Shown: one piece after another, positions 18,601 to 64,000 of the stretch
Numbering within the stretch: the first letter of the stretch is position 1
Layout of the letters: each line of letters begins with the position of its first letter
From: Apostichopus japonicus
Taxonomy: Eukaryota > Echinodermata > Holothuroidea > Aspidochirotida > Stichopodidae
Direction of reading: 5' to 3'
Length of the DNA: 64,000 bases
Assembly (NCBI RefSeq): GCF_037975245.1
Contig: NC_092564.1
Location: forward strand, 3,437,984 to 3,501,983
Notes under the pieces: generated by a model
Told to the model about the DNA's origin: nothing
Seen by the model: the letters and a program-made list of their open reading frames with translations, nothing else
Databases searched by the model: none
Position numbers and translations under genes: made by a program

Positions 18601-21600
18601 TCCGTCAGGGGGGCATCCGCCCCCCCTGACTGTATGGACGCTCCGCCACTGATCATCAACTGGCTGACAATATAGTTGACTGGTTACATTTATATCAAAT
18701 ATTTCAGATAATCATTATTGTGTGGAATTACTTGTGATGAAATCTTTGAGGTTTTAATTGATGTGCTAACTGAAATGATTTTGGTCAATTTTGACAGGTA
18801 CAGACGAGACCTTGCTGGACAAACTCAGATTATGACTTGGTGAGATGGCATGCAGGAGATTGGGGGGAATGTTTGGTCCGAAGCTTATCCCCAGGGGCGA
18901 GTCCGTGCGGTGTAGGAATGAGACAGAGAGTTGTCAGGTAAGTAATGACCTACACTGGTCCACATTTATCTAATTCAGAGATCCGTGTAGTGTAGTAATG
19001 AGCCAGAGAGATGTCAGGTAAGTAATAAGCTACGAAGGTCTACATTTATCTAATTCAGAGATCCGTGTAGTGTAGTAATGAGACAGAGAGATGTCAGGTA
19101 AGTAAGAACCTACGCAGGATCACAGACATTTATCTGACTAATTCAGAGATCCGTGTGGTGTAGGAATGAGACAGAGAGATGTCAGGTAAGTCATAACCTT
19201 CGCAGGTCCACATTAATCTAATTCAGAGATCCGTGTGAGGTAGTAATAAGACCGAGAGATGTCAGGTAAGTAAGAACCTACGCAGATCCACATTTATCTG
19301 ACTAGTTGAGAGATCCTATATTTATTGCAAAATTTTCCTCTGTCATGTTTTGTTACCATGTGCGCCCAAATGATAGGTGTTTTTCAACAGCCACCTGTGG
19401 TTTGTTAATTCCAACTCATAAATAATAATTTCTTCTACTGAATCGAAGAGATTTTTAAACAGGATGCATTATTTCCGCACTCTGCCCGCAACGGAACCGT
19501 CAGATAGTGTGAAACGTTAAAATCCATCTCAATCAGTCATGTTAATAGGAGGTAACTTGTCACTGGATATTTCTTCTACCTGAGAAAATAAATCTGTTGA
19601 CAAACTCTTCTACATACGTAGTAGGAATGACTGATGATAACATCATCTCACAGACATCTCGTGTTCAACAAGCTCTCTTGCCCAGGTAAATAAGTTTCTG
19701 ACAGGAATTGGGAATTTCTTGTTTACGAGCTAAATGAAGCAAAGGTAAGCGATAAGTGATATGGACAGTTCAAACCAAGCAGATCATTGGTGCCTCCGTC
19801 AGAAACGCCTTGTAAATTATGGCATTTCTTGTTTTCCCATCATTGGTGAGAAGTCATGTTCTGTTAAAACCCTGAAACCCCATCAGGTGTGAAAATTAAA
19901 TTATGTCGAGGTCTTTTAATGCAAAGAGAAATATGTTAGGTGATATAGGTTCGGTCTCTAATGGTTTGATTTGTTGGGAGTGCGTCATAAAATGCTCGCC
20001 TCTCGGGAGCAATAAGTAGTAAAAGGGATAATAAAGTCCAGAGTTTTTCAAGACAGCTGTGCATAATTAGAGCTCGTCAAATCCAGTACATTGGTCCAAC
20101 TCCAAGCTTCTTTAGCTTGTTCCAAGGTTGGAATACAAAACATTTGCTCTCTATACGTGTTATTTGGATGATTGCATTGTATAATAATCTGTCTTTGCAT
20201 AGATGGACAACACCAATAATTGCCTTTGTCTTTCTTTTAAGGTTAAAACAATTACATAACCTTAGAAAAGGATTCAAATATGAGATGGGATGTTAATACT
20301 TCACATTTGAATTCATCAAAAAATTAAACAGTGATTCGGTTAATACTGAGAGGTCCTAATTACAGTTTTGGTCCTGTATGACATTACAATCTATTGCACA
20401 ATTTACTTCATCCTGAATAAAAGTCAATAAGTTTAGCAATTGAACAAGCCATCAAGGTCGTAAGGAGGAGTATCTGTTCACTGGCTATGTCTTATAAACA
20501 TTCCTTACACTTGTCTTATCTCTTTAATATCATCCTTAAAGCAGCAAATTGGATTCCCAGCTTCCAGTGACATCAGAGTTTTTCCACATCATGTTGGATT
20601 ACATCTGCTTTAAATCAAATAGTAGGCTCTTGCATTTTGACCTGGGTTTATCATGACAGGCTTGGAATAGATCATTTTGTTAATAACTAATTCTGTCAGG
20701 GATCTAAAGCTGTCATCCTTGCAATTATGAACAACCCACCATCCCCACCCCCCTCTCATCCCCACCCCATAAACAGCCCAACCTTCCTTACAGTCATATT
20801 TCAGAGATTTGAATGGTATCATGGAACCATAAGTTTTTTAAGGTTTTGATCTTTCTTACTGTTTACAGCTGTCTGAAGATTGATGAAGGTGGTTTCACAA
20901 CAATTGCCAATTCCAGCTTATGTCCCTCTGAGTCTACCCCAGCTATTCGAGAAGTCTGTTCCAAACCTTGTTTTGGTCAGTGTGTGGTCAGCCAGTGGAC
21001 AGAGTGGTCTGCATGTCCAAAGGTACTGTAATTTTATAAATGAAAAAGTAATAAAAAATAGAAAACAGGCAGCTAAAACATGGTAAACTGCCGAGATTAT
21101 AAGGTTGATGAAACGTATCTGAAGTTCAATGATATAATGTATCATTGTGACCATCTTGAGAGCAAACAGAAGCAGTGGAGAGAGAGAGAGAGAGGAGAGG
21201 TGTGGAGAGAGGGAGCCGAATACTGTTATTATGTAATGAACTGATCAATGAGTAGTAGAACAAGAGTGGGTGAAAGCATCATGTCAGTAGTAAAACAGTA
21301 TAATAAATACATAATAAATATAATGCTTGATATAGCGCTATTCCAAATATGATCATAGCCCTTCACAACAAAAGAAAACAAAAACACAATGGCAGATACA
21401 TGGCAGACAATGAATACACAGTACAAATGCAAAGATCAAAATGACCCAAAATGACAAAAGGAGTAAACAGAATGTTGGATGTGAGTTAAGACACATAGCC
21501 CATGAATATTTTTCATTCACTTATTATATTAATTTATTACATTTTCATTTTCAATTCCTAGCTGTGTTCCCAATCACAGAATAAAAAAAACAGAAAAAAA

Positions 21601-24600
21601 AACATGACACCAAAGGAGATGCAATTTTCACCATTGACTAAATTCCATTTTGTCTCTTTTTGTCGATGAAAGTGACTTAGATTTTTAATATCTACATATT
21701 TTGTTCCCTTCTGCCAGAATTGTTCCTCGCTCTTCTTCAGGAAGAGATACAGGGACATTCTGCGCCATGCATCTCAGGACATCGAAGACTGCCCTTACCT
21801 GACGGAATCTCAACCCTGCAGGATCAACCTGAACTGCTTCCAGTATTTCTGGAATGCCTCCGGTTGGAGCAGTTGCATGCTGGGAGAAAACGCTGAATGC
21901 GGCCACGGCAGGAAGACCAGACTGCTGACCTGTGCTTCGGTCACAGGAGCTCTAGTGGACAACCAGCTCTGCAAAAAGGTGACCATTGCTAAGCAAACAA
22001 AATGATTAAAGGAGAAGACGAAAATTAATGTCTATATAATATGATAATAATTATTGTTATTGATCAAGACTTGCAGAAGAATAATTGTGATATGAATTTG
22101 TAATATTTGAGCAGTTTGTAGAGTTGTGAAGAGTGTATTACTAGCAGTGTTTTAATACATGAATAGGAAATAGTTTCATTGAGGAAGGTCTGTCATTTTC
22201 TTTCCACCCACCCACCTCCCACCACCCCCTCACAACCTCCCACCTCTTTACCTCCACTCCTTTTTAAAAATAAACGGCAACAGATATGGTAATTTGTTGT
22301 ACTATTGGTGTATGAAATGTGTTCTCTTGTCAACATCTTTCCGGAATTCCATTTTGGTTTATGGAAAAAATTAACCTCCGAACCTCACCATGGGCCCAGA
22401 TGAGTGAATATGCTTCCTGCTCAATGCAGTATAGTTTAGCTCATTATCAATAGGTGTACACAATCTGCAAGTAGAAATTGGTGACATCACAATGTCTCGA
22501 ATCCTTAGTATGGATATTCATGGAAATAATTACTTGTTGTTGATATTTCTAGAGTTTGGAATACGCAGATTGTGCATGGTATGATCATTAATTCTTTGAT
22601 TAATTTTTGCAGCTAAAGCTAAATGAAATTGAAGATTTCATTTCAGCATTTGATATTTCTTCCTTCCTTCCCAAGCAGTTTGCTTTCAATGCCATGCCAG
22701 AGATCACCAATGTCTGCTCTGTTGAGTGTCCATTGGACTGTAAGATGTCCGTATGGTCAGAATGGTCAACCTGTCCCCAGACCTGCGGAACACATCGTAA
22801 GAAACAAACAGTTATTTTGTTATAGTTTATCCACTGAATGACATACATTTAAAGGGTGCTGCATGATAATGTACAAGTAAGATCATATTTCAGTTTAATT
22901 CTGTGCATTATGGTTTACTATCAGTTCATATATGAAACAATTTAATACAATTAATCATGTACATACTACAAAGAAACAACCTCTGATATACTCTTTACTT
23001 ATTTAGTTATACCAGATGGTTCACCAAAAATTACCAATAAAATATTTCAGAAACTTCCATGTTGTGCAATAGGAGAGAGAGTTAATATAAGAAACAGTGT
23101 CCTAACTTGGGCTATTATCTCTGAAACTAAATCAACAAAGACACAGAATAGCATTATAGTGTATGAATAATGAACCATGATAGATTGTACAAGTCACTCA
23201 TATTCTATTGTTAGGGTAATACAATGGACCTTTGCTGTCAGTGAAACAGAGAACAATGTGTGTACTCTGAGGCCTTATAAGCATGATATATTAACAATTG
23301 AGGCTTCAGGGTACTAGATTCCTAAACAATACAGCTACTTACATCATCAAAATCTTGAGGCATTCTGTTCGATCCTTTAATAATACCAAGAGGCAGAATT
23401 TTCATCATCTTCACCGCAATAACATGATTTTTCAGGTTTGCAGACACGCTCAAGAACCATCATACAAAATCCAAATGAACGGGGGCGCCCTTGCCCATCA
23501 TCTCTAGTCCAGTCCAGGCCCTGTGAAGCTGTGCCTTGCTATACCTTCCGCCATTCAGACTGGGGGCCGTGCACAGCTCAGGTAATATGGTTTATTACAT
23601 TTTTATTGTCCTTTCTTTTATTCCATTTAACAAGACAAGGAAAACAATTTACAGATACATTATACAGTTCTGCATATCATTAATTATTATTCCAGTGTCC
23701 AACGTCTGTTGCCTTTCCACTGGTATAGGTTCTATAACTATGTAAATTGAGCTTTGCTATACCTTTGTTATTCTCTACCCCAAGTTACTGGGCTGGCTTG
23801 TCCTCTGATATTGCTTTGACAACTTCTATTCCCCACAGAGTGAGTTATTAAAGTGTAACGATAATCCTTTCCTTGTCCAGGGTAAAAGGACGAATGTAGA
23901 AGTCTTGCAATTTTAACCCGATAATGTTTTCTGGTTCATGTTGACAGGGTGAATGTGGAAGTGGTCTCCGCCACCGTAATGTGACATGTCACCAGCCAGA
24001 GGGCCAACAGGTGGACTTTGATTTGTGTCTTAAATTCCGCAGTTCTTTATACCACAGCAATATGAACATTTCTCAGAGGGGACATGAGCTCTTACAAGTA
24101 AGTATTGCAACTACCTAGCTCTCTACTGCAGCTGCATAGTAATAATGACACTACTACAGGCTGCTACCCCCCCCCCCCTAGCAGCTTCATACTAGTAGGG
24201 GCACTACTACAGACTTCCACCCCCCCTTCAGCAGCTTCATACTAATAGTGACACTACTATACTACAGACTGCTACCCCCCCCCCCCTACAGCAGCTTCAT
24301 ACTAGGATTGACACTACTACAGACCGTTACCCCTCTATGGCACCCAAACACCCCAGTCATAAGCAAAACAGAGGATTCCTGACCAGACTCAGTTGCAATT
24401 GGTATTAGATGACAGTTAACTTAAGTAATAACATGAAAAAAATAGAAGAAAAGGGAAAAGAAACACAAAAAAGCAATAAGATTGGTGTATATTACTCATT
24501 TGTGGAACCCGGTTTAGATGTTGTTGCTGCTGGTTATTAAAATATCCTAGTGGTCAATTCAGGAGGAATCAGTTTGCCAAGTATTAACAACACCGTCCTT

Positions 24601-33971: not shown

Positions 33972-34920
33972 AATTTAAAAAGCAAAAATACAATTTATTT
34001 AACATAGATGGGAAGAAATTTAATATGCTGAATAGTAGAAATAATGTTGAAAAACATCCTTCCTTATTTGAAAGAAGAACCACCATTTATCAATAACAAT
34101 AGTACTTCAGATTTGTAATATTTAATTCAGTTATCGTTTCATTACTTTGATACAGAGTAAATTTTAAAATTAGTTAAACGTAGAAAATTAGTTGAATTGA
34201 TAATTTTCAATATTTATTAGAGCGTAGTATTTAAAGTGTGTAGAAAGTATACAATTGTTCCTGTTATATCATAGAATTAATTTTAATTGAAATTCTGATG
34301 TCAAATGTTTGCTTCAATGTCCCAATCTCATAACACAACCAACAAGTGGACCCCATAATGTGTTGGAAATTTGGGCAATGCAAACAAAATTTTCTCCACC
34401 AGATTTTATTTTGAACTTTTCTAATTTATTAGTTGATTATAGAGGATTATGTATTACCAAAATTCCTGTGTTTTGTTGGCAATTTGAGCCATAATGTGAT
34501 GACTGACATATCTCTCAACTTTGTAGAAATTCTTGTTATGTAAGATTTTACTATCATGGAAGATTCTTTGCTCTTGTAAGATATTTGCAGTTGTCTGAGA
34601 GGACAATTTGAGGTTCTGTAATGTTGTGTATTATGAGGGTACCTCATGAGGTATTCAATAGCTACACTTTATTGTTACAATAGTTATTTGCTTTATGCAT
34701 CTGTAATCCTAACGAAAAAACAGGTCAACAGATATGAAGCTGTATCATACACAAGTTTTTATCTCCCTTCCCCTCAGCCCCCGATCCCTTTTTAAGATTC
34801 TACCACATTGCCCCTTCCTATAGAGTGTAAACTCAGATAAACATGTACCTCTTTGTGATTCGTGGTTTATCCTAACAAAGGTCAGAGTATTTTCCTCATC
34901 TGTTTTGCTGTTCATTGATT

Positions 34921-35628
34921 ACAGTGTCCAATGTTTGGTGATAACCTATTAATTGAGCTGTTTATTATTTACAGTGTCCAATGTTTGGTGATAACCTATT
35001 AATTTAGCTGTTTATTGATAACAGTGTCCAATGTTTGGTGATAACCTATTAATTTAGCTGTTTATTAATAACAGTGTCCAATGTTTAGTGATAACTTATT
35101 AATTTAGCTGTTTATTAATTACAGTGTCCAATGTTTGGTGATAACCTATTAATGTAGCTGTTTATTAAATAAAGTGTCCAATGTTTGGTGATAACCTATT
35201 AATTTAGCTGTTTATTAATTACACTGTCCAATGTTTGGTGATAACCTATTAATTTAGCTGTTTATTAATTATACTGTCCAATGTTTGGTGATAACCTATT
35301 AATTTAGCTGTTTATTAATTACAGTGTCCAATGTTTGGTGATAACCTATTAATGTAGCTGTTTATTAATTACAGTGTCCAATGTTTGGTGATAACCTATT
35401 AATTTAGCTGTTTATTAATTACAGTGTCCAATGTTTGGTGATAACCTATTAATGTAGCTGTTTATTAAATAAAGTGTCCAATGTTTGGTGATAACCTATT
35501 AATTTAGCTGTTCATTAATTACATTAGTGTCCAAGGATTGGTGATAACCTAATAATTTAGCTGTTCATTAATTACAGTGTCCAATGTTTGGTGATAACCT
35601 ATTAATTAAGCTGCTCATTAAACCAACA
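34921..35628 (+). repeat. 50-bp satellite, 14 copies
   Basis: Unit ACAGTGTCCAATGTTTGGTG followed by ATAACCTATTAATTTAGCTG and TTTATTAATT. Period is exactly 50 bp until an insertion near 35521. A variant pair (AATGTAGCTG then AAAGTGTCCA) recurs 300 bp apart (35121-35220 and 35421-35520), indicating block duplication. Confidence 0.92.
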
Positions 35629-37368
35629 CAGTGGGCAGTTCTTGGCTTGGCTTGTACAACATGTAATATTTGTAAATACAATTTCCAAAAAAGTTTGAAT
35701 TTTTTATCAATCTTGCTTTAAAATTGCCTCCTTTGGCTTAAACGTGAATACAGTTATCTCACCTTTAGCATTAGAAATTTACTTAAACTTCTCTTTATAT
35801 TATCCTCTCGTGTGTATCGCTCGATTAATATAGTTGGCATTTCTATGTGTGATGTTGTTTTAGTGATGTCATTCTCTAGTGCACTGGTCTATATACAATT
35901 CACTTCATATGTGCGTGTGACAATGTTTTATCCTTCCTTCCTCCTTCCTTTATGAATATTCATATTTGATCAGCTCTGCCATGCATGAATTTATGCAGCT
36001 CTTAGTGTAAATAAAACTACGCATACTTACGTAATGTGCTCACATATTGGGTATGCTGTTATGATAATATATAACTCTGTTTTCGTGTTTACATGAACAT
36101 TATTTTCGTTAAAACTTTAGTTTTCCTTCTAGTTTTTCAGGCAATTTGGCGTACAGTTTGAGATGCAAAGTCCACTGGAGTGTATTTCTCATTGTATTAC
36201 TTGACTGTTCTAATAATTAAGTCCTATTGTTTTGTCTTATGTTACTTGCAATTTTGAGTTACCCTGCCTCTTGCCATTTATTTTCCTTTCTTCTGTTATA
36301 TTTGTACATTTCATTTTTGTTTTCATTTGATTTGTTTTTTTTATTTGATTGTGTAATCTTTTCCACTGTTCAATATTTGCTAGTCCTGTAAAGTGTGTAC
36401 ATGGCAACACGACTTGATTGCAATCGGTCTCCATGGTAACTGGAGTTTGTTCACAATACTGCAATGTTTTACAACTTGATGATGTAGGATAAATTAAAAA
36501 TGATTCTTTCTTTTCATATGTTGTTTTTTCTTCATCTTTGCTTCCTTTTTGTAGTCACTGAAAGTTTTTTTTATGTAGATCAGGATTCAATAAAAACTTT
36601 AGAAGTACTCAAGTGGAACACCAAGGAGGACCAGATGGGGGTGGGGGGGGGTGAGGGAGGCAGAGGGATGGAGATATGTGTATGCTATTAATTCAAAAAC
36701 TTGTTTTCTTACAAGGAACTATCCACACATTGACATAGAGGTAATGGGGTTGCTTAGATGGCTAGTTTGAGTGATGCAATAGGTAGTCACCATTCTTGCC
36801 TAGCTAACATTGAGCATAAAAAACATTAACACATGAATATACAAGTTCAGTTTATTTTGAGATCATTAATAACTGTCTTGACATTAGCAGACGTTATGTC
36901 GAAATTAACATTGATATACAAATGTTCATACTCTGTCAAATAACATAGACGTTTACACCATATCACAATGACATACATACAGTTCTTGGACATTCAGTAA
37001 AATATACATACATTTCATAATAATAACCATATTCATATGTCTGGTAATAAGTATTAAACAATAATATCCACCTGACCTTACATATAAGGGGTCTATTAAG
37101 ACTGGATTTGGATCTGATCCGGATGGAAAGAAACAGGGTCTGCTTGTGTAGACTACTACTTCTCCCTAATACATGGCATGCTGTGACATCCATAGTGCAT
37201 TTACCACTAATCTTAATACATCATGAACTCTATGCTGAAATTGTAGGACGTCTGCTCGGACTCAGTTTGATCTGAATCAAAATGGGTTAACATAAGACTT
37301 GATCGGAATTCCTCTGTTGGGATCCATATCTGGTGTTAACAGAACCTGATCAACATTTACATGCAGAT

Positions 37369-37935
37369 GGTCTGTGTTCAGTTACATTACTCTATGTGGC
37401 CTCATAGGGGTACACATATAACATTTACATACATATGGTCTGTGTTCAGTTACATGACTCTATGTGGCCTCATAGGAGTATACTTATAACATTTACATAC
37501 ATATGGTCTGTGCTCAGTTACATGACTCTATATGGCCTCATAGGAGTATACTTTTAACATTAACATACAGATGGTCTGTGTTCAGTTACATTACTCTATG
37601 TGGCTTCATAGGAGTATACTTATAACATTTACATACAGATGGTCTGTGTTCAGTTACATTACTCTATGTGGCCTCATAGGAGTATACTTTTAACATTAAC
37701 ATACAGATGGTCTGTGTTCAGTTACATTACTCTATGTGGCTTCATAGGAGTATACTTATAACATTTACATACAGATGGTCTGTGTTCAGTTACATGACTC
37801 TATATGGCCTCATAGGAGTATACTTATAACATTTATACACAGATGGTCTGTGTTAAGTTACATTACTCTATGTGGCCTCATAGAGGTAAACTTATCCCAT
37901 TAACTTACATATGGTCTGTGTTCAGTTACATTACT
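37369..37935 (+). repeat. 68-bp satellite, about 8.4 copies
   Basis: Unit starts GGTCTGTGTTCAGTTACATT, followed by ACTCTATGTGGCCTCATAGG and AGTATACTTATAACATTTAC. Starts are at 37369, 37437, 37505 and on to 37913. Confidence 0.92.
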
Positions 37936-38089
37936 CACTTTAAAATAACGCCCTCATTTGGATCGGATTTGTAAGATTTCAAATCAAATATTGTTTAACA
38001 ATCAAGGAATGTTCAAAACTAAAATATTTACATATGTCAATAACATCTCGTGTCAATGACACCAAACAGTAAATCATCCAACGTAAAAG

Positions 38090-41500: not shown

Positions 41501-44500
41501 ACAGTGGTTTTGTTTGTAACTAACATTATGTATGATTGTTGAATCCTATCTGTTCCCTTTGAAATGGAATGGTCATACACATCTGACTATGATCACATAG
41601 TAACATTCTCTATATGCAAGTGGAATGGGATTGAGAGTGGATCGGTAGTTTGGTTTTCTAGCCCATCATTTCTTTTAAGGGTAACTACACAGTACGATGA
41701 ATCTACTATAATATTCATCAGGCATAGGCTATACCACATCGCTGCCGAATGTTATATGGTGGACTGCATGTCCAGTTCTATGGATTATGTACGCAGATAT
41801 CGAGAACGTTAACATAGTATCCGGAACTTCAACAACGTTGTTATTGAGGTAAATACGTAAAACAAGTAAATCCGCGCTTCGTAACTTCGCTATGTGGAGA
41901 GAAACTAACAATATCAGGGCTTAGCATTCATTCTTAGGCATAGGCTACGTATAGTGTGATATACGCGCTCTTTTAGGGTTTTCCTGACCAACCAGACTTT
42001 TACTATTTAGACGTATAATAACGCGCCATTGTACGATCAGTTGGGAATAGTCAAATGATTCAAAATATTAAACGAATAACATTTGTCTCGGTCTGGTTCA
42101 TCATGTTTCTACTTACACTGCCAGCCTTTAGTGTAAGAAATGGTTTCAGTCAGACTATATATACCTAACTTTATTGCTTACAATGGATACTACATGACGT
42201 CACAAATGGAACATTATTGCTTTACCTGTAGTCGCTGATCATAGGGACACTTCATTGGCATGTACCTAGCATGCAGGGTTAGGAACAAAACGGACACACA
42301 GATGGTCAGCGGAACAATTCGATAGTCCCATCCGTAAATAGTCAACAAAATGGTCTGTGAACACTTCCGTATCAGCTCTAGGATTTCCCAATACCAGAAT
42401 TGACTTTTGTAGTTTTCACAAAGAAAATTGAGCCAAGTCGGAAAAGCAGGTGGGACATCACTGTAATCAACAACAAGCGGCATGTCCTCTTCAGTACCTG
42501 ATTCTTCTGCTTCTGTAGAATTGTTATCATCAGTTAGTCGACGTTGAGTAGACCAACGCGAACAATGTTTCCACAAGAAACAAAAAAGTGTTGCTGGAAA
42601 TGCGATGACGTATAACAGTGTAAAACAATACGCTGCTATATTGTACGAATGAAACGCTGATGTTTTACAGTCAATCCCATAGTCAGATCGTAGAAGACGT
42701 CTAGTTTCATTCTCTGTGGCATTGTCATGCAATGGAAATTCCTGGCATGCACTTGGATACATGTTGAAAATAACGGTGGATATACCCGGATACATGCAAA
42801 AGAAGAGTACAGTTACATACGTAAGAAGACGGTCCTTTAACTTCCTCAGTTTGGTAGATACCAATTGGGTTTCAGAAGGAAGATAGTTATACTTCAGGTA
42901 AGCTCGCTTAGCTTGATAGATAAGAGATGCGGAGCAAATGATGAAAATTGGCATAATTATACCAATAACGAATCGACCTTCAGGGTTTAATTCCAGATTT
43001 TCGAATAAGCACCTGGCGCCTGAAACGTCACGTATTATATTCAGTTCCATCAAAGATATCACAGTTCCCAAGGGTACGAGTGGGTCGGCCCAGCTGACGT
43101 CATGTAATGATTCTAGTAACTTTCCAACGATTTGATAGAATCCTAACAGGATTTTAGTCCTAGATATCAACACATTTACCACAGAACGCTTTTTGGTTGT
43201 GTTCTTTCGTTCCTTTTCAAATTGCCATGACAACAGCAAGAGCAGAGAAACACAAAGGAACACAAATACACTGGTCATAGCAATTAACATGATTTTCTTC
43301 GGGCAAGGTACGCAGAGATTGAGCGCACCATAGTAATTATTCTGACATTTAGCGCATAACCAGCCTTTATACCCTTTTTCACATCTGGTCGTTACATTCT
43401 GAAAGCCGTCGTTGATGCAACTTCTCTTTCTCAGACAAGGAAAAGCTTTCGGTATTATCCCATCATAACTATTGCTTGTCCCCTTGAACGAATGATCCAG
43501 CTTCTTCATATTGATCACGAAATGTCTGTAGTTACTCCTGCTAGCGTTGGCAAATTCCCAACTCCAGAAATAGCCAGGTAGAGGAAGTTTCACATCATGG
43601 GAGCAATTATATATGTTGTTGTCACAAGGAAAGCATTTCCCAAATCGATGTGTTCTTGTATGGTTAACTTTACAAAAGCAAGCCCTGTAACTGGCTGGGC
43701 GGCTTTTGTCGGTACCCTCTGGACATACTTCACACTGATCACTAGATACTCCTGCACCATTGCTCACCCATGTACCGCTGTTACATACTTTGCAAGCAAT
43801 TTCACCGGGATTTCGAGCCGATACTCCAAAGTCATCCTGATAAAAGCCACCTATAATAAAAGAAATGTGAAGTTATCAGATATTACGCACGCAAATGAGT
43901 TTAATTTCAAAGAAAAGATCATAATTGTACTTCACTGATACTTTTGTCCGTTAAGGTAATCAAATATGCCACAAAGTCAAAGAATAGTCACAATATATAG
44001 CCTACCACAACTTCAACAAGCGTTCGCTGCCAACCCTCCAAATTATTTCTCCTAAGTGGGATATCGAACTGTCTATTTTAAGTTAATCGCAATGTCTTGA
44101 AATCATTTGAACATTTAGAATCACCAGTGAAGAATTTTTCATACCTGATAACAATTTTTAGCTGGCCGAAAGTTGGGGCCAATACTAGCTGATAGCTTGA
44201 AACATATAGAATGAAATTCAAACCACTGATCGCAATTGCCTAAATTGTTAAAATATATGTTTAAGATACCCCGCAATGCAAAAACATTAAAACACATATG
44301 GGTTTTTTATCCATCTTTAATTAGCTTTCATGTTACACATGTTCGCAAAACGTATTTCCTTTGGATAAAGCTTTTTTTCTGTAACTTTGACTAACCCATT
44401 TCAAATGTTTATACAATTTAGAGAATCTTCGCGGGCATTTGCAAATATTTTTCATATTCCGTTGATAACTATTAATGTGTTCTCATCGAGCAAAATATAG

Positions 44501-47500
44501 TTCAGGGAGAAATGTTGTTTTTGACATGTCAAAAGGAGCATAGTTTATGAAATTTGCATTAAATTTCTACTTGCCGTTGAATTGTACACGTTTATACTGT
44601 ATGACACTTTGAGTAATAACAATTAATATAAAACCAACATATATCTTCTAAGTTTGAAATAATGTACGAATCTGCATGCATTATGATATATATATATCAC
44701 GTGTGGAACTTCCATTTCTTCCTGACTCTGTCATTCTACATAAGCGTTCTCGGCTTTGTGAACCACCACCGAGTTACACGTGCAACAATGTGCGCCAATT
44801 ATAAAATGATGCGGCCCCATATCTCTATACCTCAATAGTGAGACTCAATTCACAATACGATTATAAGTGTAGCAGTTATATTCTGATAGGTGTACAATTC
44901 TCAAAAGAGCAGACAAAATTACAGGTTTTACCAATTCATTATCGAAGAGAAATGTTTGATGCCATCGTCTATCTTTCCCTTGATAGAGGGCGTGCGTGTT
45001 TAAAGATAGGCAATCCTACTTATCATCATTTAATGTGAGCCCATGTGTGACTTTGTAACAACATACTTTATCTTATAAAAGTTCAAGCGTAATCAAATAG
45101 TGCTGTGAATATTTGATAGTTGGCCTATTTAAAGTGGATGTAACCTTTTACCTGCTGGACATTTCTGGCATCCCTGTTTACCTGTATATATAACCTATTA
45201 CTTGCTGGACAATTCTGGCATCCCTGTTTACCTTTAACCTACTACCTATAACCTATTACCTGCTTGACAATTCTGGCATCCCTGCATACCTATAACCTGT
45301 TACGTATAGCCTATTACCTGCTGGACATTTCTGGCATCCTTGTTTACCTATATAACCTATTACTTGCTGGACAATGCTGGCATCCCTGTTTACCTTTAAC
45401 CTGCTACCTATAACCTATTACCTGCTTGACAAGTTCTGGCAACCCTGTATACCTTTAACCTATTACCTATAACCTATTACCTGCTTGACAATTCTGGCAT
45501 CCCTGTTTACCTATATAAGGCTATTACTTGCTTGACAATTCTGGCATCCCTGTTTACCTTTAACCTGCTACCTATTACCTGCTTGACAATTCTGGCATCC
45601 CTGTTTACCTTTAACCTATAACATACAACCTATTACTTGCTTGACAAGTTCTGGCATCCCTGTATACCTATAACCTGTTACGTATAGCCTATTACCTTCT
45701 GGACATTGCTGGCATCCTTGTTTACCGTCGGCATAGAATCCTTTACTGCATGTTGTACAACTACTGTTGCTGCAATTGAAACCTTCCTTTTTCAAAATAT
45801 CGAGTATGTCTATCTCTTTCGGAGTATTATATGAACGGAGGTCCGATGCATCCAGTTTAATGGTTGGAAGAAGCTCATTGGAACATATGCTAGATGGAGT
45901 AAACAAAGGAAATAACCATGCTCTATAAATTAATATCAAATATTTATTACATCGTCATGCAGTGTCCACAATTTGAGCATTGTTAGTTGGCAGGAATTCA
46001 AAGCTGTACACAATTGTAGGCTGATATCCATCATTCAGTCATGCGCCCACCTCATTAAAACATAAAATAAAAAAGCCCTAACCTCTTGGTACACTAGCAT
46101 ACACTTAACACGTGTTCACAAATCACAACCAAACCTGGATTTCATTCAAAAGAGTTCTCAACGTATAGGCTGTGACCGAGAATGACCATAGTCAATGATA
46201 TGCATCTCCAAACTATATGGTATATATACTAATGATGCAATCAACGATAGTATAACCCTTCGTACTATGTTTGCCTTCCGTAGCTCTTATACGAACTTAC
46301 CATTTCAATATATTACTTACACACTGACCAAGTGGTTGCTCGAATCCTCTCACATATATTCTTTTAGAATCTGCGGGAAGCACAATCCAGGCTTCACCTG
46401 TCAACTGACATTCCAATATATACAGGCACGCGCAAATCGACACAGGCGCATGACCACTGTCGAAAATCCTATCCACTATGGAGCGGTGCTGGGAGAGGGG
46501 GTGGGGGGGGGGGTAATAGAGGGAGATAAACTTACATGTGTATTTTCTTGTTATCTATTAGAGGAAGAGTGTCTAAGAATTCGCAATTGAGAACACTGTG
46601 GAAGTGAAATAAATAAAAACTATGGTAACAATACGTTTAGTTTAAATTATTAGTTATGCAACAATCAGTAAAGATATATCACAACTAATACGCGATAGAA
46701 GGGAAGGCAAGGTAGAGGGGATGTTTTCCTTTTCGAATTGGTTATTTTACCGTCAGTAAATTTCATTTCATATCCCCCAGTCCGCCGATTGATACAATAC
46801 AGATTTTATATTGTTGAAAGGTTTGTATTCTTATCTGATTTAAAACCCTTTGCGAGCACATTCTTTGCTCTGGCAAACTTCTTTATAATTTTCATCCAGT
46901 TTTTTTTTCTCTTAATGAGTTTCTTTTCTATATATATTTGCCTTTGAGTAATGGTTTTACAATGTTTAATATGTATTGCTAGATGAATGAACTAACCAAT
47001 ATGAGTGGGTTTAAAATAGCAAACATTATGTGCGTATCCTAATTGACAACATATAACGAACAAATTAAACGAAACAAATGTTACATATGGGCTAATGAAA
47101 TAAACTTAAGAATTTAACAATAAGAAAGCTTGCATTTACATTTCTGCTTGCAATAAACCGTCAAATATTGTGCCGCTTAAATTCTTTATCTTGTTGTCAT
47201 GGAGATATCTGAAATGAAAATCAATATACACATTTCATACATATAATTCAGATCAACCACATAAAGCTAAAGTAAGCTCGCAGGAGTTGTAGAAAGTTTT
47301 CAAAATGATAACCTTTTTTTTTTCACAATGTCTATTTTCAGAGACTATTCAGAGACTAAGTGACAAGTAACAGCAACATATTTTGAATTAAATTATCACA
47401 TCCAACAAATGTAGTGAATATGGGGCAAATTACCTATGTGTCCGTAGGGAGTGCTTTAAAGGGATATTCCAGACATATTGCAAATCGTGAAGGCAAAATT

Positions 47501-51672: not shown

Positions 51673-51732
<60 letters not shown>

Positions 51733-55416: not shown

Positions 55417-57463
55417 AATCATTGAACAATTAATCGAAACGGAAAGGAATTAGAGGAAAGGAAGGAGGGAGGGGATAAACTTTGCAGAGGGTTCTGACAA
55501 CGAGAGTTAATTATTAATAGAGGTAATAAAGTGGTTGGGGAGGGGGGGGGGGTTGGTGAGGAAGACAGGCATACAACATGCAAGTATACACGGACATGGT
55601 ATAAGGAGGATAGCTGGTGTGAAAGGATATGGTTGGGCAGGGGAAGGGAGTGTGGGGAAGGGGGTTATACATTTCTTTCTTACGTGTTGAGACCATAGTT
55701 TTGAATTGTTCGATGTGGCTGCACCCACAATCGTTCCCTACTAAGGAAAACTGTACCAGGGCAATAACCTAAAACTTCAACGACTTGTAGAACAATGTTT
55801 AATATAGTGCGGTTTGGAAGGTGGCATACAATATGGTTTCTAAACAGATTTGTTTTCTCTCCATCGTTTATCTTTTGTTTGGCTTCATAATTATGAAAAC
55901 CATTAACTAACGATATAACTTTCCTTAAAAAATGGAAATAAGTTTGTGGCTCTTCATTTATGCATGACTTTACATAAGGGCCGGCCATCATATTTGCATG
56001 TGCAGCGTACATGGCCCTCTTAACAATACTGCAAGTAATATCAATAACTCGTTCAGTAAAACTGCGACCTATAATGATTATTGAAGTTCCATTCTGAGAA
56101 TCCGTTTGAAATCTATTAAACTAATTTCCACCCAATAATCTTGCATGTAATGCTGGTTTCTATAGTCGAATTTGGTACATATCTTGCGGTAAATCAATAT
56201 AAGTACGTGTAAAATAATAGCTTCCAGTTTGATAAATTTATTCCGAAGTTATTATATTCATTGAAACGGTGACCGAGAATGCTATCAAGACATGGAAATG
56301 ATGATTTCCAAATCATCTTATTGATAACATTTAGTGTTCGAAGATGAGGAGGGATGAGAGCACTAGCGCTCCATTGTAGTAACCTTTCACTTCTTTTGCT
56401 GCAAATGTATGTCTTTTCAATAATTAATCTTCAGTAACATGTACATACTCAATTACTTGTTAAAAATAACTTATTGCTGCCGACGTTTTCATTACGCACG
56501 AGGTCTACAGTTAGAAAGAAAAAAGCCGTAGCAACGCTTTAATCATTGTCCAAAGAAGATTAATTTTAAGCACAATAGGCCTTAACTAGTTATGTTCAGA
56601 CACGGACACACTTTTAAAGGGAAACGAACACAGTTTATGTGTTGTCGATACATGATGATTACATGCAACAGTGAAATGACTACATTAGTAAGAGGCAATA
56701 TTTATATACGTTTTAAGCGGAAGAAGTTGTGAAGTGTTCTCTGTGACCGATGGAGGTTCTTGGTTTCACAAGATCTTATGTGTGCTGGGACTTTGGAATG
56801 AGAGAGTTCGTTATACATAAAAGTCGTCTTTATATACATGTGCAAAGGCTGCAAGGTTAGGTAAAGTGGTATGACAGAAAGTCATACAACTAATTAGAAG
56901 ATATTAGAAACAGAATACATCCAAATAATTCTTTAAGCCTACCTCCTTTTGTGATCCGTTGTAAGTATCCAATTATTCCAGTCGCCTTTTGGTCATAAAT
57001 GATGGAATTTCTCTCTTTCTTCAAAGGTTGTTCTGATTTCCTATATAACCCATGAATAAGTATATAGGACGTATCGTCTATGATTTCACACTATAGTGTA
57101 ATTGCCTCCTGACAAGATGAAGGTTTATATTTCCGTCTATTTTACACTTGAAATGGGTCATCAGTAAACGAAACTGCAAGCTGCTTTCACAGGAGAGCAA
57201 ATGCAAGAGCTCTATTTATTTATCTAACTAATTGCCACGACTAATTGCCACTATTAAGTGCACCCTTGAAATCACAAAAGACTAGAATCACGTTTCGGTT
57301 AACATATATTGCCGTATCTAGGAACTCGTTTCTTAGTTGCTTTTTACAGACATATTGTATTGTTAAATAATATAACAATTGACAAGATGAAATATCTCAC
57401 TGTGTTAATAGAAAAACTCATATCATGTGTTCTTAACTTAACTGTTCATTGAATGTAATCAAG

Positions 57464-57797
57464 TTTGACTGTCTAACCCGTCGATTCTTCTGCGGAGTGG
57501 ATCATAATAGATGACCTCTGATATCATAAATTTTGACTGACTAATCCGTCGATTCTACGGCGGAGTGGATCATAATAGATCCCCTGTGATATCATCAATT
57601 TCGACTGACTAATCCGTCGATTCTTCTGCGGAGTGGATCATAACAGATGACCTGTGATATCATCAATTTTGACTGACTAATCCGTCGATTCTTCTGCGGA
57701 GTGGATCATTATAGATGACCTGTGATATCATCAATTTTGACTGACTAATCCGTCGATTCTTCTGCGGAGTGAGTCATAATTCATGACCTGTGATATC
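57464..57797. repeat. 68-bp satellite, five copies
   Basis: Units start TTGACTGACTAATCCGTCGA, followed by TTCTTCTGCGGAGTGGATCA and TAATAGATGACCTGTGATAT. Starts are at 57464, 57532, 57600, 57668 and 57736. Confidence 0.92.
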
Positions 57798-60700
57798 CTC
57801 ACGGTACAACGTGGCCAACTTTATTTTCTAGTTGATGTATTCTTGACAACATCGGATACATTTGGTATATTTACTTAGCTAAAATGGCTCTGCATACATT
57901 AAGTTTAACTCGCTTAATAGTACACCGGGCAGTTTCCCCGATTTGAGAGTGATCGGATTTAGACAATAAATTTGATTTACGTACCGACGCCTCAGATATT
58001 TGAATCGGAGTCGAGTTGATGCAAGGAGACAATGCCATAAAATATCCTCTCTGTTATGGAAGTAGTAACTTAATTGTCAAGAGAAGTCAACATTTTTAAA
58101 GGGCAGTAGAAAAGTTAAATTTTAACTTGAGACTGATCATCACCCACCTGGTTTATATAACAAAAAGCAGAATGAAGAACAATAAGAATTATGCGTTGGG
58201 CCTTCTGTCTTCCATATATAAAGGTTTGTAGTTAAGGCCATAAAAGGGTTCAGAAAATGATGGCGCTGACATTTGGAGCCGCTGCTCGTAGTGAAGTTTT
58301 AAATAACATATTATTTTGTTTGTAAAAGTTAAAAGAATATGATGCATCTTCTGAAGAAAGGGATTGTCACATTTAAGCGTTGTAAAGAATACGTGAAAAG
58401 AATTTACGAATCCCACGTAACTACATATAGACCCGGTAAATCGTCCCTACGACGAACTGCGACGAAAAAAATCAATCTAGTTTTACACCAAAGTACGAAC
58501 TACAACGGCTATGGAGACCAAGTTACCTCCAGGGTAAGCGATGGAGCGATTGCAACGCCTATTTCCTCCAACAAATATACTTAATATTATAGTGACCCGG
58601 TTACCTGACCTCACATACTATTCAGAACAACACTTGCCTGCTCAACATAACTTTACGCAGCTCAGTTTTTCGTGCATGGTTACTGGACAGTCGTGCTTTG
58701 TTTCGTTAAACATATTCAAATAGTAAGCATGCATATTTATTTGCAGTTAAGTTCGGCGTAAAATTTGTTCACGTATTATTTATAAGAATTTAAATGTTAC
58801 AAATATTATGAAGTCATTTGGAAGGTTCTTGTCTTCGCCATACAAAGTGCACTGAGGGAGGGATTTTGACCTAACGAATCAGGAAATAAACACTAAGTTT
58901 TGTCAGGCAACGAACTTCAGTGACAGGAATATCCATTCAATTAATATTTTACTATTTTACAACCTCTATCAATCCGCTAGTTTCATTTTTGGGTCTGCTT
59001 GGGCCAACATGGTGTCATGTGACACTTTATTTTTTTGCACTAACAAGGTATAGATTTCATATTTCGTATGCGCAAATCCCTTCAACACTCTTGTTGGGTG
59101 TAAACTAAGCCGGTGATGCCACGCAACATGGTTCAGTTTCAATTTCAAAGACACTGGCAAAAGATAGGAGCACGATGCTTTAAATTGAAAGTCAACACAC
59201 CTTTCCTATAGGCTATGCTGATATTGAGTATTAACATAATAATCCAAATGGATATTACATGCTTTCAATTTAACTTTGTGCCAGTCTATTGATAGTCATA
59301 CCGAAAGCAGATTGCTACACTTACTGAATAATGCAAGGCCACATTTCATTGAAAGAATAAAATGTCTCGCTGGTTTCTCCTTTCCCCCTCAGATATATCT
59401 TGTACCTAGCACTAAAACGATTACACACGAATAACAAATTAACACGGATGTTCCATTGCCAATATTTATCTTGAACTACAGATGTAATAGTATAATATAT
59501 TTTTCATACATCTATGTTCAATAACCACTAAAATTGGCATCAATGTAATTCGTTTCTAATTAAGAAGTCTCAATTAATATCCACATTTCCTAAATTACTA
59601 GCTTAGACTAGGGTCCCATTTTGCGTTCTGGTCCTCATTTATTACGCTGGAGAGCTTTGACACTAAGCCGATATACGTATGAGTCGGATTTAAAATCGGC
59701 GGGCTCGATTAAGCAACCTCTATAGGGTATACACTGAGTCAATGTGGATAGATATAATACATGTGAATATGTATTGTGTTAGTAACAGTAAAAAAAAAAT
59801 ACCAAATACCAAATATTACTATGATGTACCTTCCTAGTAAGGCTTTCAAATAGTTATTACATGGGTTATAAATTCGTTACTATGGATATGCAATAAATGC
59901 TAAATGTTTTTGTAAGGTTTGAAATAAAATACACTACATATTCGAGAAAAGTCCAATGAGGAAATATGAACATATTTACATATGACACTGAACAATTGCA
60001 ATCTTGTTCATGTAGCTCAGTTAATGATAATATTTACACTCTTCAAAAAAAAAAACGTTGCAATATTTACAGGATGAAAGTAAAATACAAAAAAAGAATA
60101 GAAAAGGAAGATGCCATTGATCACAGAAAACATTTGCATATTCTAAATCAAAAAGAAAATATTTACAACAATATCGTTGAGTATTATGGCTTAAAATCAT
60201 TTTAAGCAAGTTTGTAGTTGAGGTTTATGAATAGGTTTGTAACTGACATGTAGAAATGCGCATCATTTATCAACTTTCAATTAATACAAATCGCCAAATT
60301 TCCACAGTACTTATATACAGTATACTACAGTCTAAAATAATTTTTCTTACTTAGCAATTTTATCGCTAACTATTGCATCGTGTAACATTAATTTTTTTCA
60401 GGCATAATTGAAACATCAAGAATTGTAAAAACATCATACTTTCAGCTCTAATTGAGCCGTTGTTCATCCTTTTTGTCTAAATAGGAGCTTATATCAAGTA
60501 GATTAACGTTTGCTACGACTTTATACAATGGTGATATTTAAAACGTTTGAAAAAAAAAACTGCATAAAAAGTTGAGAATGATCCTCTTCTATTGACAAAA
60601 AGAATAATAAATATGATTATGTCTAACTGGAACTTTTTTGTCGTCTCACCCCTCTTCATATAACAATTGTTCGAAATTGCCAACGACTGGCTGCTTAGAG

Positions 60701-61257: not shown

Positions 61258-64000
61258 CTAAGAACAAAAAATTGGTAAACAGGCATCGATGGTTTTGTTT
61301 GTTTATTTATTTATTAATGACTAAATCAATTCATAAATATGTATGTATAAAGCACCGTAATTTATTTGAAGTTGTTAATGGTGGGGGGGGGGGAGGATGT
61401 TAGTAGATGGTTGGTCTGTTACACATGGAAAATATGTGCTGTGTGCATCTGTAAAATTGTACATAAATTTAAGTTTTACAATAGTTTGTGACTCTTAGTT
61501 TTGAACTAAGGTCATATGTAGAGTATTTTTCATTTGGAGACTTTTGATATTATTATATCGTTTTAACATATATATATATCGATCGTGACATTAATGCGAC
61601 TCACACACCGTCATTAGTGTAAAGGGATTGGTACTGAGTCATTGAAAGTGGCATTCATTTTCTCAAGGTTAACATTGGTTTTCGTGTCCTGGTTCTTAAA
61701 TTGATGACTCTCCTCACAATTTTGTTAAATATTTCAGGTTACTGAGAACAGACAAAGCAAGTTAAACCATTGCGATTGTTGCCAATTGTCAAAGATATGA
61801 AAAATAAATATGAAAGTATCTACGTGTAGCTTTATAGCTATGAAACAAGGTAATCGGTTAACTTGCCTGCAATCAAGAATAAGACGGCTATATTTAAAAC
61901 TATGATGAAAATTGCCGTAGGGTGTTTTGTTCCCCGAATATCTGCCTTGGCTGAAGCTATCACAACATTGATGAAAATCGCAGCAAGTGAAAAAAGCTGA
62001 AGAAAGAGAGAGAAAGGAGAGAAACTTTGAACAATGATTATGAAGATCAGTTTATGTTACATTAGTGTATAAGAATGTCTACCCAGCCAATCCACACTCT
62101 TCTCAATAAATTTGGGTCTCGTCAAGAAAATCGGGGTTTGCTCCCCTTCTTTCTTTCCTCCTTTGATACTATAATGGTTTTTTAAGGTAGTAAGTACGCC
62201 CTTGCAAATGGTATTCACTTTTCTGACAACAATCTTGCTCAGCCTATTGCTGTATTAAGTGAGTTTGAATTCTTCAGTCATCTCGGATTAGGATATAACC
62301 CTATAACAGTTGCTCAGGGTAATTGCAATCGCACCCATTTGTAGCGTTATTGTGCTATTGTGTCAGTATTTTTTATGTGATTTTGCATATATTACATTTT
62401 TAACATCTTACTGATCATTCAAAGAAATATTGTTGATCCTTTCATGGATTCTGTTATTACATTTCAAAAGGCGAATTATCATCCTTTCTAGAAGCTCAAC
62501 CTCGCAGCTCGTCATGTATAGGACAATCCCCGACACGTGCTATTATCGGCGTACACCCTTGCCGTATAAACTTTCAAAAAACAATAAAATCTGCCTTTTT
62601 TGTTACTCTTTTTTCTCTCCTGGGAGTGTTATACTTTGTTACACCAAGATGTTTCTTTGATCACTTCCTTTCACAACTAATGAAACGAATGAAACGAATG
62701 AAACGAATGAAACGAATGGAACGAATGAGATGGAATGAGATGGAATGAGGTGGAATGAGATGGAATGAGATGGGATGGAATGAAATGGGATAAAATGGGA
62801 TGAGATGGAATGAGATGGGATGAGGTGAATGAGGTGGATGTGCTGGGTGAGGTGGATGAGATGGCATGAGATGGAATGATATGGAATGAGATGGAATGAG
62901 ATGGGATGAGGTGGATGCCATGGATGAGGTGAATTAGGTGAATGTGGTGGATGAGGTGGATGAGATGGATGAGATGAATGAAAGGTTATGGCTTTACCTG
63001 TAGTCGCTGATCACAGGGACACTTCATTGGCATGTACCTGGCATGCAGTGTTAGGAACAAAACGGATACACAGATGGTCGGAGGAACTGTCCGATCGTCC
63101 CATCCATAAATGGTCAACAAAATGGTCTGTGTACACTTCCGTATCAGCTCTAGGATTTCCCAAAACCAGAATTGACTTTTGTAGTTTTCACAAAGAAAAT
63201 TGAGCCAAGTCGGGATAACAGGCGGGACATCACTGTAATCAACAACAAGCGGTATGTCATCTTCAGAAGTTGAATTTTCTCCATTTAAATTGTTATCATC
63301 AGTTGGTCGACGATAAGTAGACCAACGCGAACAATGTTTCCACAAGAAGCAAAAGAGTGTTGCTGGAAACGCGATGACGTATAAAAGTGTAAAACAATAC
63401 GCTGCTATATTGTACGAATGAAACGCTGATGTTTTACAGTCTATCCCATAGTCAGATCGTAGAAGACGCCTAGTTTCATTCTCTGTGGCATTGTCATGCA
63501 ATGGAAATTCCTGGCATGCACTTGGATACATGTTGAAAATAACGGTGGATATACCCGGATACATGCAAAAGAAGAGTACAGTAACATACGTAAGAAGACG
63601 GTCCTTTAACTTCCTCAGTTTGGTAGACACCAATTGCGTTTCAGAAGGAAGATAGTTATACTTCAGGTAAGCTCGCTTAGCTTGATAGAAAAGAGATGCG
63701 GAGCAAATGATAAATATTGGCATAATTATACCAATAACGAATCGACCTTCAGGGTTTAATTCCTTATTTTCTAATAAGCACCTGGCGCCTGAAACGTCAC
63801 GTATAATGTTCAGTTCCATCAAAGATATCACAGTTCCCATGGGTACGAGTGGGTCGGCCCAGCTGACGTCATGTAATGATTCTAGTAACTTTCCAACGAT
63901 TTGATAGAATCCTAACAGGATTTTAGTCCTAGATATCAACACATTTATCACAGAACGCTTTTTGGTTGTGTTTTTTCGTTCCTTTTCAAATTGCCATGAC
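61130..64000 (-). CDS. Second LRR-type multi-pass receptor, 3' part (three exons, runs off the window)
   Basis: Tandem paralogue of the gene at 38440-54006. Exons 5' to 3': (beyond 64000)-62998, 61996-61867, 61257-61130. They encode the membrane domain from SWQFEKERKNTTKKRSVINV onward, the acidic loop, WEILELIRK, the last helices, and the tail GEALLRTIVYIKKRFPKK ... SAGWHYLF ending at TAA. Only about the last 420 codons are visible, so the LRR part is assumed from the paralogue. The large exon is about 92% identical in protein to its partner by eye, while the two last exons are only about 60-70% identical. Confidence 0.82.
61381..61396. repeat. G-run in the last intron of the second receptor
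   Basis: GGTGGGGGGGGGGG-type run on plus; C-run in the transcript. Confidence 0.6.
61865..61866 (-). other. GC 5' splice site, second receptor
   Basis: AG|GCAAGT, a perfect GC-AG donor context. Same place and phase as 39427-39428 in the paralogue. Confidence 0.72.
61867..61996 (-). CDS. Second receptor, penultimate exon
   Basis: Acceptor tcttcag. It encodes LFSLAAIFINVVIASAKADI and IFIIVLNIAVLFLIA. GC donor (GCAG|GCAAGT), as in the paralogue. One codon longer than the partner exon. Confidence 0.78.
62678..62985. repeat. ATGA/TGGAATGAGA satellite
   Basis: About 300 bp of AACGAATGA then TGGAATGAGATGGGATGAGG-like repeats. It starts 12 bp beyond the donor of the large exon of the second receptor and lies in its intron. 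The open frame across it is repetitive and not a gene. Confidence 0.9.
62998..64000 (-). CDS. Second receptor, large membrane exon (partial)
   Basis: Open in frame from the window end to donor gtaaag at 62997. It carries the same order of motifs as 42226-43850, with an acidic-loop replacement (NLNGENSTSEDDIP) as the main difference. Confidence 0.85.

Follow-up and report, generated by a model that had tools for sequence, protein, structure and literature searches.

The window, the whole 64,000-nucleotide stretch of Apostichopus japonicus DNA that we analysed, harbours two minisatellites that each start within the 3' end of a predicted coding exon and run on into the intron. An earlier note on this DNA had described them as two independent repeats of an exon end with its donor, in unrelated genes, and both were recovered from the sequence. 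Their features are listed in Table 1.

Table 1. Features of the two loci, with positions in the window (a slash between bases marks a splice junction)
Feature	Positions	Strand	Description
Coding exon (exon 12 of the earlier note)	45696..45889	-	encodes ...CSKGFYADGKQGCQQCPEG; ends in phase 1 at CCAGAAG/
Intron after the exon	43851..45695	-	1845 bp; the array is its first 555 bp
Next exon, open frame	42214..43850	-	GGFYQDDFG..., cysteine-rich then transmembrane-like; acceptor at 43850; joined in frame
Unit 1	45669..45726	-	last 31 nt of the exon (GGTAAACA...CCAGAAG) plus 27 nt of the intron
Units 2-11	45141..45668	-	intronic copies, 42-59 bp, a GTAATAGG-like junction in each
Starts of units 1-11	45726, 45668, 45609, 45558, 45511, 45453, 45394, 45348, 45290, 45232, 45182	-	
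Second array	18902..19316	+	units of ~80 bp; the first one includes the final 36 nt of a TSP1-like exon

Two exons with arrays at their 3' ends

In a Pfam scan, the minus-strand exon is weakly similar to TNFR_ELAPOR1_6th, a TNFR-like cysteine-rich domain (E 1.7e-5 for the exon alone, below the curated cut-off). Joined to the next exon, it gives a TNFR_ELAPOR1-like match at E 3e-4, also below the curated cut-off. The 5' boundary of the exon is predicted to be the acceptor CATCTAG/CATATG. The exon is supported by its in-phase join to the next one (CCAGAAG/GTAATAGG ... TTATTATAG/GTGGCTTTT), which yields ...CQQCPEGGFYQDDFG... within 608 open codons; the limit of the next exon at 42214 is the end of a stop codon and may lie past its true donor. 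Upstream on this strand, another reading frame matches LRR_8 (E 1e-7) and probably belongs to the same gene. The designation 'LRR receptor exon 12' is that of the earlier note. A tandem paralogue of the receptor gene is found on the minus strand at 62986-64000, with an open frame that by eye is nearly the same as that of 42214-43872; it leaves the window before its matching exon and intron. Besides the exon and the array units, a tblastn search of the window with the exon gave nothing better than E 0.4.

Read on the minus strand from 45726 to 45141, the array is composed of 11 head-to-tail units of 42 to 59 bp, and it is covered by a TRF row (45141-45726) with a score of 739. The earlier proposal that an exon end and its donor had been copied about ten times into the intron is thus borne out, with ten intronic units. 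The junction of unit 1, AAG/GTAATAGG, is the real donor, with its first intron base at 45695. A single base is inserted in the exon part of each of units 2 and 6, and unit 11, at the far edge, is the shortest, with 42 bp. Autocorrelation of the array peaks at 14, 51, 58 and 59 bp. The linkers are heptad-like (AGGTTAT, AGGTAAT, AGGTTAA), and GGTWA motifs occur 29 times in the array.

The unit appears to be private to this locus within the window. When up to 3 mismatches are allowed, the 18-mer GGTAAACARGGATGCCAG is found 11 times in the 64 kb, each time inside the array; shuffled sequences gave a mean of 0.06 matches, and 11 were reached in 0 of 100 shuffles. A blastn search with the exon and intron (E 1e-3) detected no match elsewhere in the window. 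As the unit is absent outside the array in both searches, an origin from a general satellite was rejected within the window. A 17-base junction pattern was found in 36 viral-contig stretches, with one exact match in each, as expected by chance.

All ten intronic units keep the GT at the junction, preceded by CAG in six and by CAA in four. The earlier note had given these junctions as CAG or CAA followed by GTAATAGG, which is exact for eight of the ten; units 4 and 11 depart from it, with CAA/GTAATAGC, which ends in C, and CAG/GTAAAAGG, respectively. An additional GTAATAGG lies at 45466 inside unit 5, beyond the ten copies at the unit ends. The same note had opposed degenerate exon parts to retained junctions, but we detected no such contrast: among the ten intronic copies, 9 of 32 columns vary in the exon part and 2 of 8 in the donor (Fisher p = 1.0). 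Mean pairwise differences are 0.095 in the exon part, 0.050 in the first 8 intron bases and 0.081 from positions -3 to +6. Decay of the exon parts around selected junctions was therefore discarded as undetectable.

The second array lies on the plus strand, and its exon encodes WHAGDWGECLV...CGVGMRQRVV. The donor of this exon, TGTCAG/GTAAGT, has its GT at 18938, and four intronic copies follow at 19018, 19098, 19186 and 19266, which makes five with the real donor. With an E value of 0.006, the match of the exon to TSP1_ADAMTS stays below the curated cut-off; thrombospondin type 1 domains are also matched by each of four further open frames in the region, in two cases above a curated cut-off. 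At the edge of this array, the exonic GAGTCCGTG corresponds to GAGATCCGTG before the units, and the array ends with GAGATCC. By eye, the short motif common to the exon edge and the array end is TCC preceded by GAG. A further array of 60-bp units (24152-24319) starts ~55 bp past the inferred donor at 24098 of the TSP1-like gene; it does not copy the exon edge, the best local match being 14 of 24.

Origin of the receptor array and related repeats

The homology of the receptor array ends at the exonic GGTAAACA, since the 14 nt that precede it agree with those before the other ten units at just 1-6 of 14 positions. The anatomy of the array and the relationships of its units can be read directly. 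Unit 8 (45348-45291) is 97% identical to unit 1, and the 21-mer CTATACGTAACAGGTTATAGG is found on the coding strand of the window only in these two units, seven units apart. Blocks of units are alike as well: units 1-2 are 92% identical to units 8-9, units 1-3 are 89% identical to units 8-10, and units 5-7 are 90% identical to units 8-10. The likeness of units 1 and 8, together with these similar blocks, argues for exchange of multi-unit blocks including the exon edge, and not for one-by-one copying of the exon.

Repeats of this type are known as mirages, the one in Adh3 reportedly having been first described in a separate original report. In amphioxus, mirages of Adh3 and of the globin genes BflGb6 and BflGb9 are presented as minisatellite-like tandem duplications of exon-intron boundaries, on both the donor and the acceptor sides, with units of 10-160 bp; RT-PCR of Adh3 and the globins suggests that normal splicing is undisturbed, as far as the consulted part of that report goes (PMC3087553). 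The receptor array can be classed with the mirages, a structure that has thus already been described, with a mechanism that the amphioxus authors call unclear in the same part of their report (PMC3087553). As in amphioxus, the boundary is duplicated, many copies keep AG/GT and one copy is the authentic exon edge (PMC3087553). The tandem repeats span the boundary with one copy in the true exon, which was itself predicted from sequence, and their 42-59 bp units carry splice signals (GT in 10/10, CAG in 6/10). The in-phase join at the real donor would be consistent with normal splicing. Unlike the amphioxus cases, the gene is an unrelated one and the edge unit 1 is very similar to an inner unit, whereas in BflGb6 the cluster boundaries are said to escape homogenization (PMC3087553). 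The turnover pattern of the receptor array combines blocks that are 89-92% alike, the near-identity of its edge unit with unit 8, and a short far-edge unit.

We therefore favour, with a probability of about 0.8, a mirage-type minisatellite that arose when a short GGTA repeat gave rise to a duplication across the exon boundary, and that was then expanded by slippage or unequal exchange. We infer the following mechanism and time order. The founding tandem duplication would have happened to span the 3' boundary of the exon, including its last 31 nt, the donor and the first stretch of the intron. Its left breakpoint would be the exonic GGTAAACA and its right breakpoint a GGTA motif ~58 bp downstream in the intron, the start of which, with its own 7-bp AGGTTAT- or AGGTAAT-like subrepeats, may have carried the latter. 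Growth to 11 units would have followed by slippage or unequal exchange, partly as blocks of several units. Intronic copies would have been free to acquire frameshifts and altered linker lengths, while the exon copy would be kept because the coding role is limited to the 5'-most copy; the donor copies would be donor-like passengers. The first event may have proceeded from exon to intron, but as the exonic unit is so close to an inner one, exchange with the array may since have replaced the sequence of the exon end. A duplication of whole small exons was rejected as the main reading, because the units have no usable acceptors.

Several other systems resemble this array in part, and our comparisons refer to the consulted portions of the reports cited. 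The VNTR of intron 18 of human ABCA7 likewise begins at the donor of an exon and repeats the donor GT in its units, the next of which, when used, leads to a frameshift and a premature stop; it differs in its C-rich, polymorphic 25-bp unit, which starts at the GT itself, and in having been tested at the RNA level (PMC5954066). The minisatellite of human IFI6 (6-16) also supplies multiple splice donor sites, but in that gene two downstream units of the repeat serve as donors, giving three mRNA species, whereas the donors of the receptor array are predicted only (PMC4526556). Judging by its name, the human CBS VNTR c.1444_1467+7(16_21) has a unit made of an exon end and the first 7 intron bases; unlike our array, it has a fixed 31-bp unit in 16-21 copies and is polymorphic (PMC2630376). 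Human internal tandem repeats are similarly minisatellite-sized and located at exon-intron boundaries, but they belong to recent paralogues and were selected for copy-number differences between paralogues (PMC2812944). Lastly, intron gain by tandem duplication (the Rogers model) also multiplies AGGT-containing or boundary sequences, as exemplified by 24-bp AGGT repeats in fission yeast and by the potato RdRp; in contrast, the copies described here sit in an existing intron (PMC4974935). Nothing on point was present among the matches listed for the Amphimedon-directed literature, and four further papers, in the portions consulted, leave our reading unchanged (PMC4039745, PMC3039753, PMC3618361, PMC2572611).

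Coding consequences and strength of the donor copies

The frame consequences of the repeated donors are directly visible. Sites of the form GTAATAG or GTAAAAG number 12, and only the real donor keeps the frame open across the join to the next exon. All 11 downstream sites lead to a premature stop: for ten of them an in-frame stop lies ahead of the site, and the other one, at 45636, causes a frameshift, with an end after 111 codons. Reading through the real donor gives an in-frame extension and then a stop, as the earlier note had stated. As for splicing behaviour, the original donor probably remains the principal one, being the sole site of the 12 from which the next exon is reached in an open frame. 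If used, the donor copies would terminate the frame prematurely and probably expose the mRNA to decay.

Donor scores were computed with a generic matrix and are purely descriptive. The real donor scores 6.3; the unit-end junctions score 7.2-7.4 in six of the ten cases and 3.2 in the other four, and GTs at the unit starts reach 7.2-8.1 in six of ten. By this crude measure many copies look as usable as the real site. One may ask whether selection maintains the copies as decoys, or whether they regulate splicing and so adjust expression via decay-inducing isoforms. The stronger junctions would fit such a role, as would the 12 GTs scoring at least 6 in the array (real donor excluded), compared with 3 in the other 1289 bp of this intron. 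In the consulted part of the ABCA7 report, moreover, VNTR length is associated with exon 19 skipping and not with retention of VNTR units (PMC5954066). Nevertheless, the junction columns are not detectably more conserved than those of the exon part, A replaces G at position -1 in four of ten junctions, and three GTs elsewhere in the intron, outside the array, equal or exceed the copies in score (up to 8.9), on a scale that is itself descriptive. Such a regulatory role is very unlikely in our view.

A cryptic donor, ACG/GTAAAC, was also observed within the exon at 45725 on the minus strand, 30 nt before the real donor, with a score of 5.8 as against 6.3. Its use would drop 10 residues without a frameshift.

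The units might alternatively represent in-frame cassettes, such that splicing could extend the receptor by 10-residue cysteine pairs. All ten intronic units do have AG/GT at their start and GT at their end, eight of them harbour a 30-nt open in-phase segment with both cysteines (G(K/M)QGCQxCxA), and mirage units have been proposed as recruited exons of amphioxus globins in the consulted part of that work (PMC3087553). Nevertheless, the AGs of the units are devoid of a pyrimidine tract, with pyrimidine fractions of 0.35-0.53 compared with 0.76 at the real acceptor 43850. The introns between adjoining cassettes would measure 16-28 nt, and introns of that size are too short for usual splicing. 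In addition, two of the ten units carry a frameshifting insertion, and the high identity of the units by itself would keep the frame open. We consider this proposal extremely improbable, and regard the copies as passengers of a mirage-type expansion.

Arrays and splice donors across the window

From the presence of two cases in 64 kb, the earlier note had raised the idea of a shared mechanism that starts repeats at 5' splice sites. Copies of at least 20 of 24 bases within 1 kb were present for 2 of the 11 donors that we inferred and for 17 of 300 random positions, but for none of the 11 inferred acceptors. An excess at donors is not demonstrable (binomial p = 0.13), and the 11 donors include both cases that prompted the test. 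This set of sites is partial, with one donor and one acceptor from 10 of 11 candidate exons, to which the donor at 45695 and the next exon's acceptor were added, the latter one base off (43849 instead of 43850); the candidate exon row 46595-46536 was left out as doubtful.

Random placement was simulated for the minisatellites of the window. Fourteen arrays were hand-merged from TRF rows scoring at least 100, including one neighbouring row that scored 94; after removal of those with units shorter than 10 bp (12879-12957 and 51675-51729), the 12 remaining minisatellites, which amount to 4515 bp, were simulated with this single cut-off. Positions of donors and arrays were drawn uniformly, irrespective of gene structure. 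For 12, 30 and 60 donors, the expected numbers of arrays touching any donor are 0.8, 1.9 and 3.4. When the donor has to lie in the first unit at either end, they fall to 0.24, 0.58 and 1.10, with probabilities of at least two such arrays of 0.02, 0.11 and 0.30. With one given end, the expectations are 0.11, 0.29 and 0.57 and the probabilities 0.005, 0.03 and 0.11. As the strict rules are post hoc and the donor numbers are assumed values, the window neither shows nor excludes an excess at donors. Other sizeable minisatellites of the window, with 90-92% matches, are located at 34903-35621 (50-bp unit), 37352-37936 (68 bp) and 57458-57801 (68 bp).

These analyses bear on the idea that a process acting at 5' splice sites, such as R-loops, U1 binding with stalled transcription or replication conflict, seeds repeats preferentially at donors. 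The low probabilities obtained under the strict rules for one given end (0.005-0.11) or either end (0.02-0.30) would be consistent with it, and so would two donor-spanning arrays in unrelated genes, set against none at the inferred acceptors. The coding-strand G skew is 0.39 for the receptor array (45141-45695) and 0.18 for the TSP1 case, compared with 0.05 in the rest of the receptor intron and 0.03 in the sequence adjoining the TSP1 array. Strand GC skew is often linked to R-loops; nevertheless, GGTA-rich units would be G-skewed under any mechanism, so the skew speaks neither for nor against R-loops. Furthermore, the looser tests give no excess, with 0.8-3.4 arrays expected to touch a donor and a p value of 0.13, and the edges of the two arrays are not on the GT but 31-36 nt upstream of it. 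Both types of boundary are affected in amphioxus, according to the part of the report consulted (PMC3087553). Preferential seeding at donors is thus unlikely, and the need for a new mechanism finds no support, the phenomenon having been published as mirages on both donor and acceptor sides. It is similarly improbable that donor-seeded repeats form a genome-wide class of donor mirages from which decoy donors and new introns steadily arise.

Taken alone, the receptor array is an ordinary case. Minisatellites that span exon boundaries multiply cryptic donors, and they are a proposed route to new introns. With two donor arrays in 64 kb, this genome would be a reasonable one in which to test whether such repeats are seeded by splice sites or tolerated at them.
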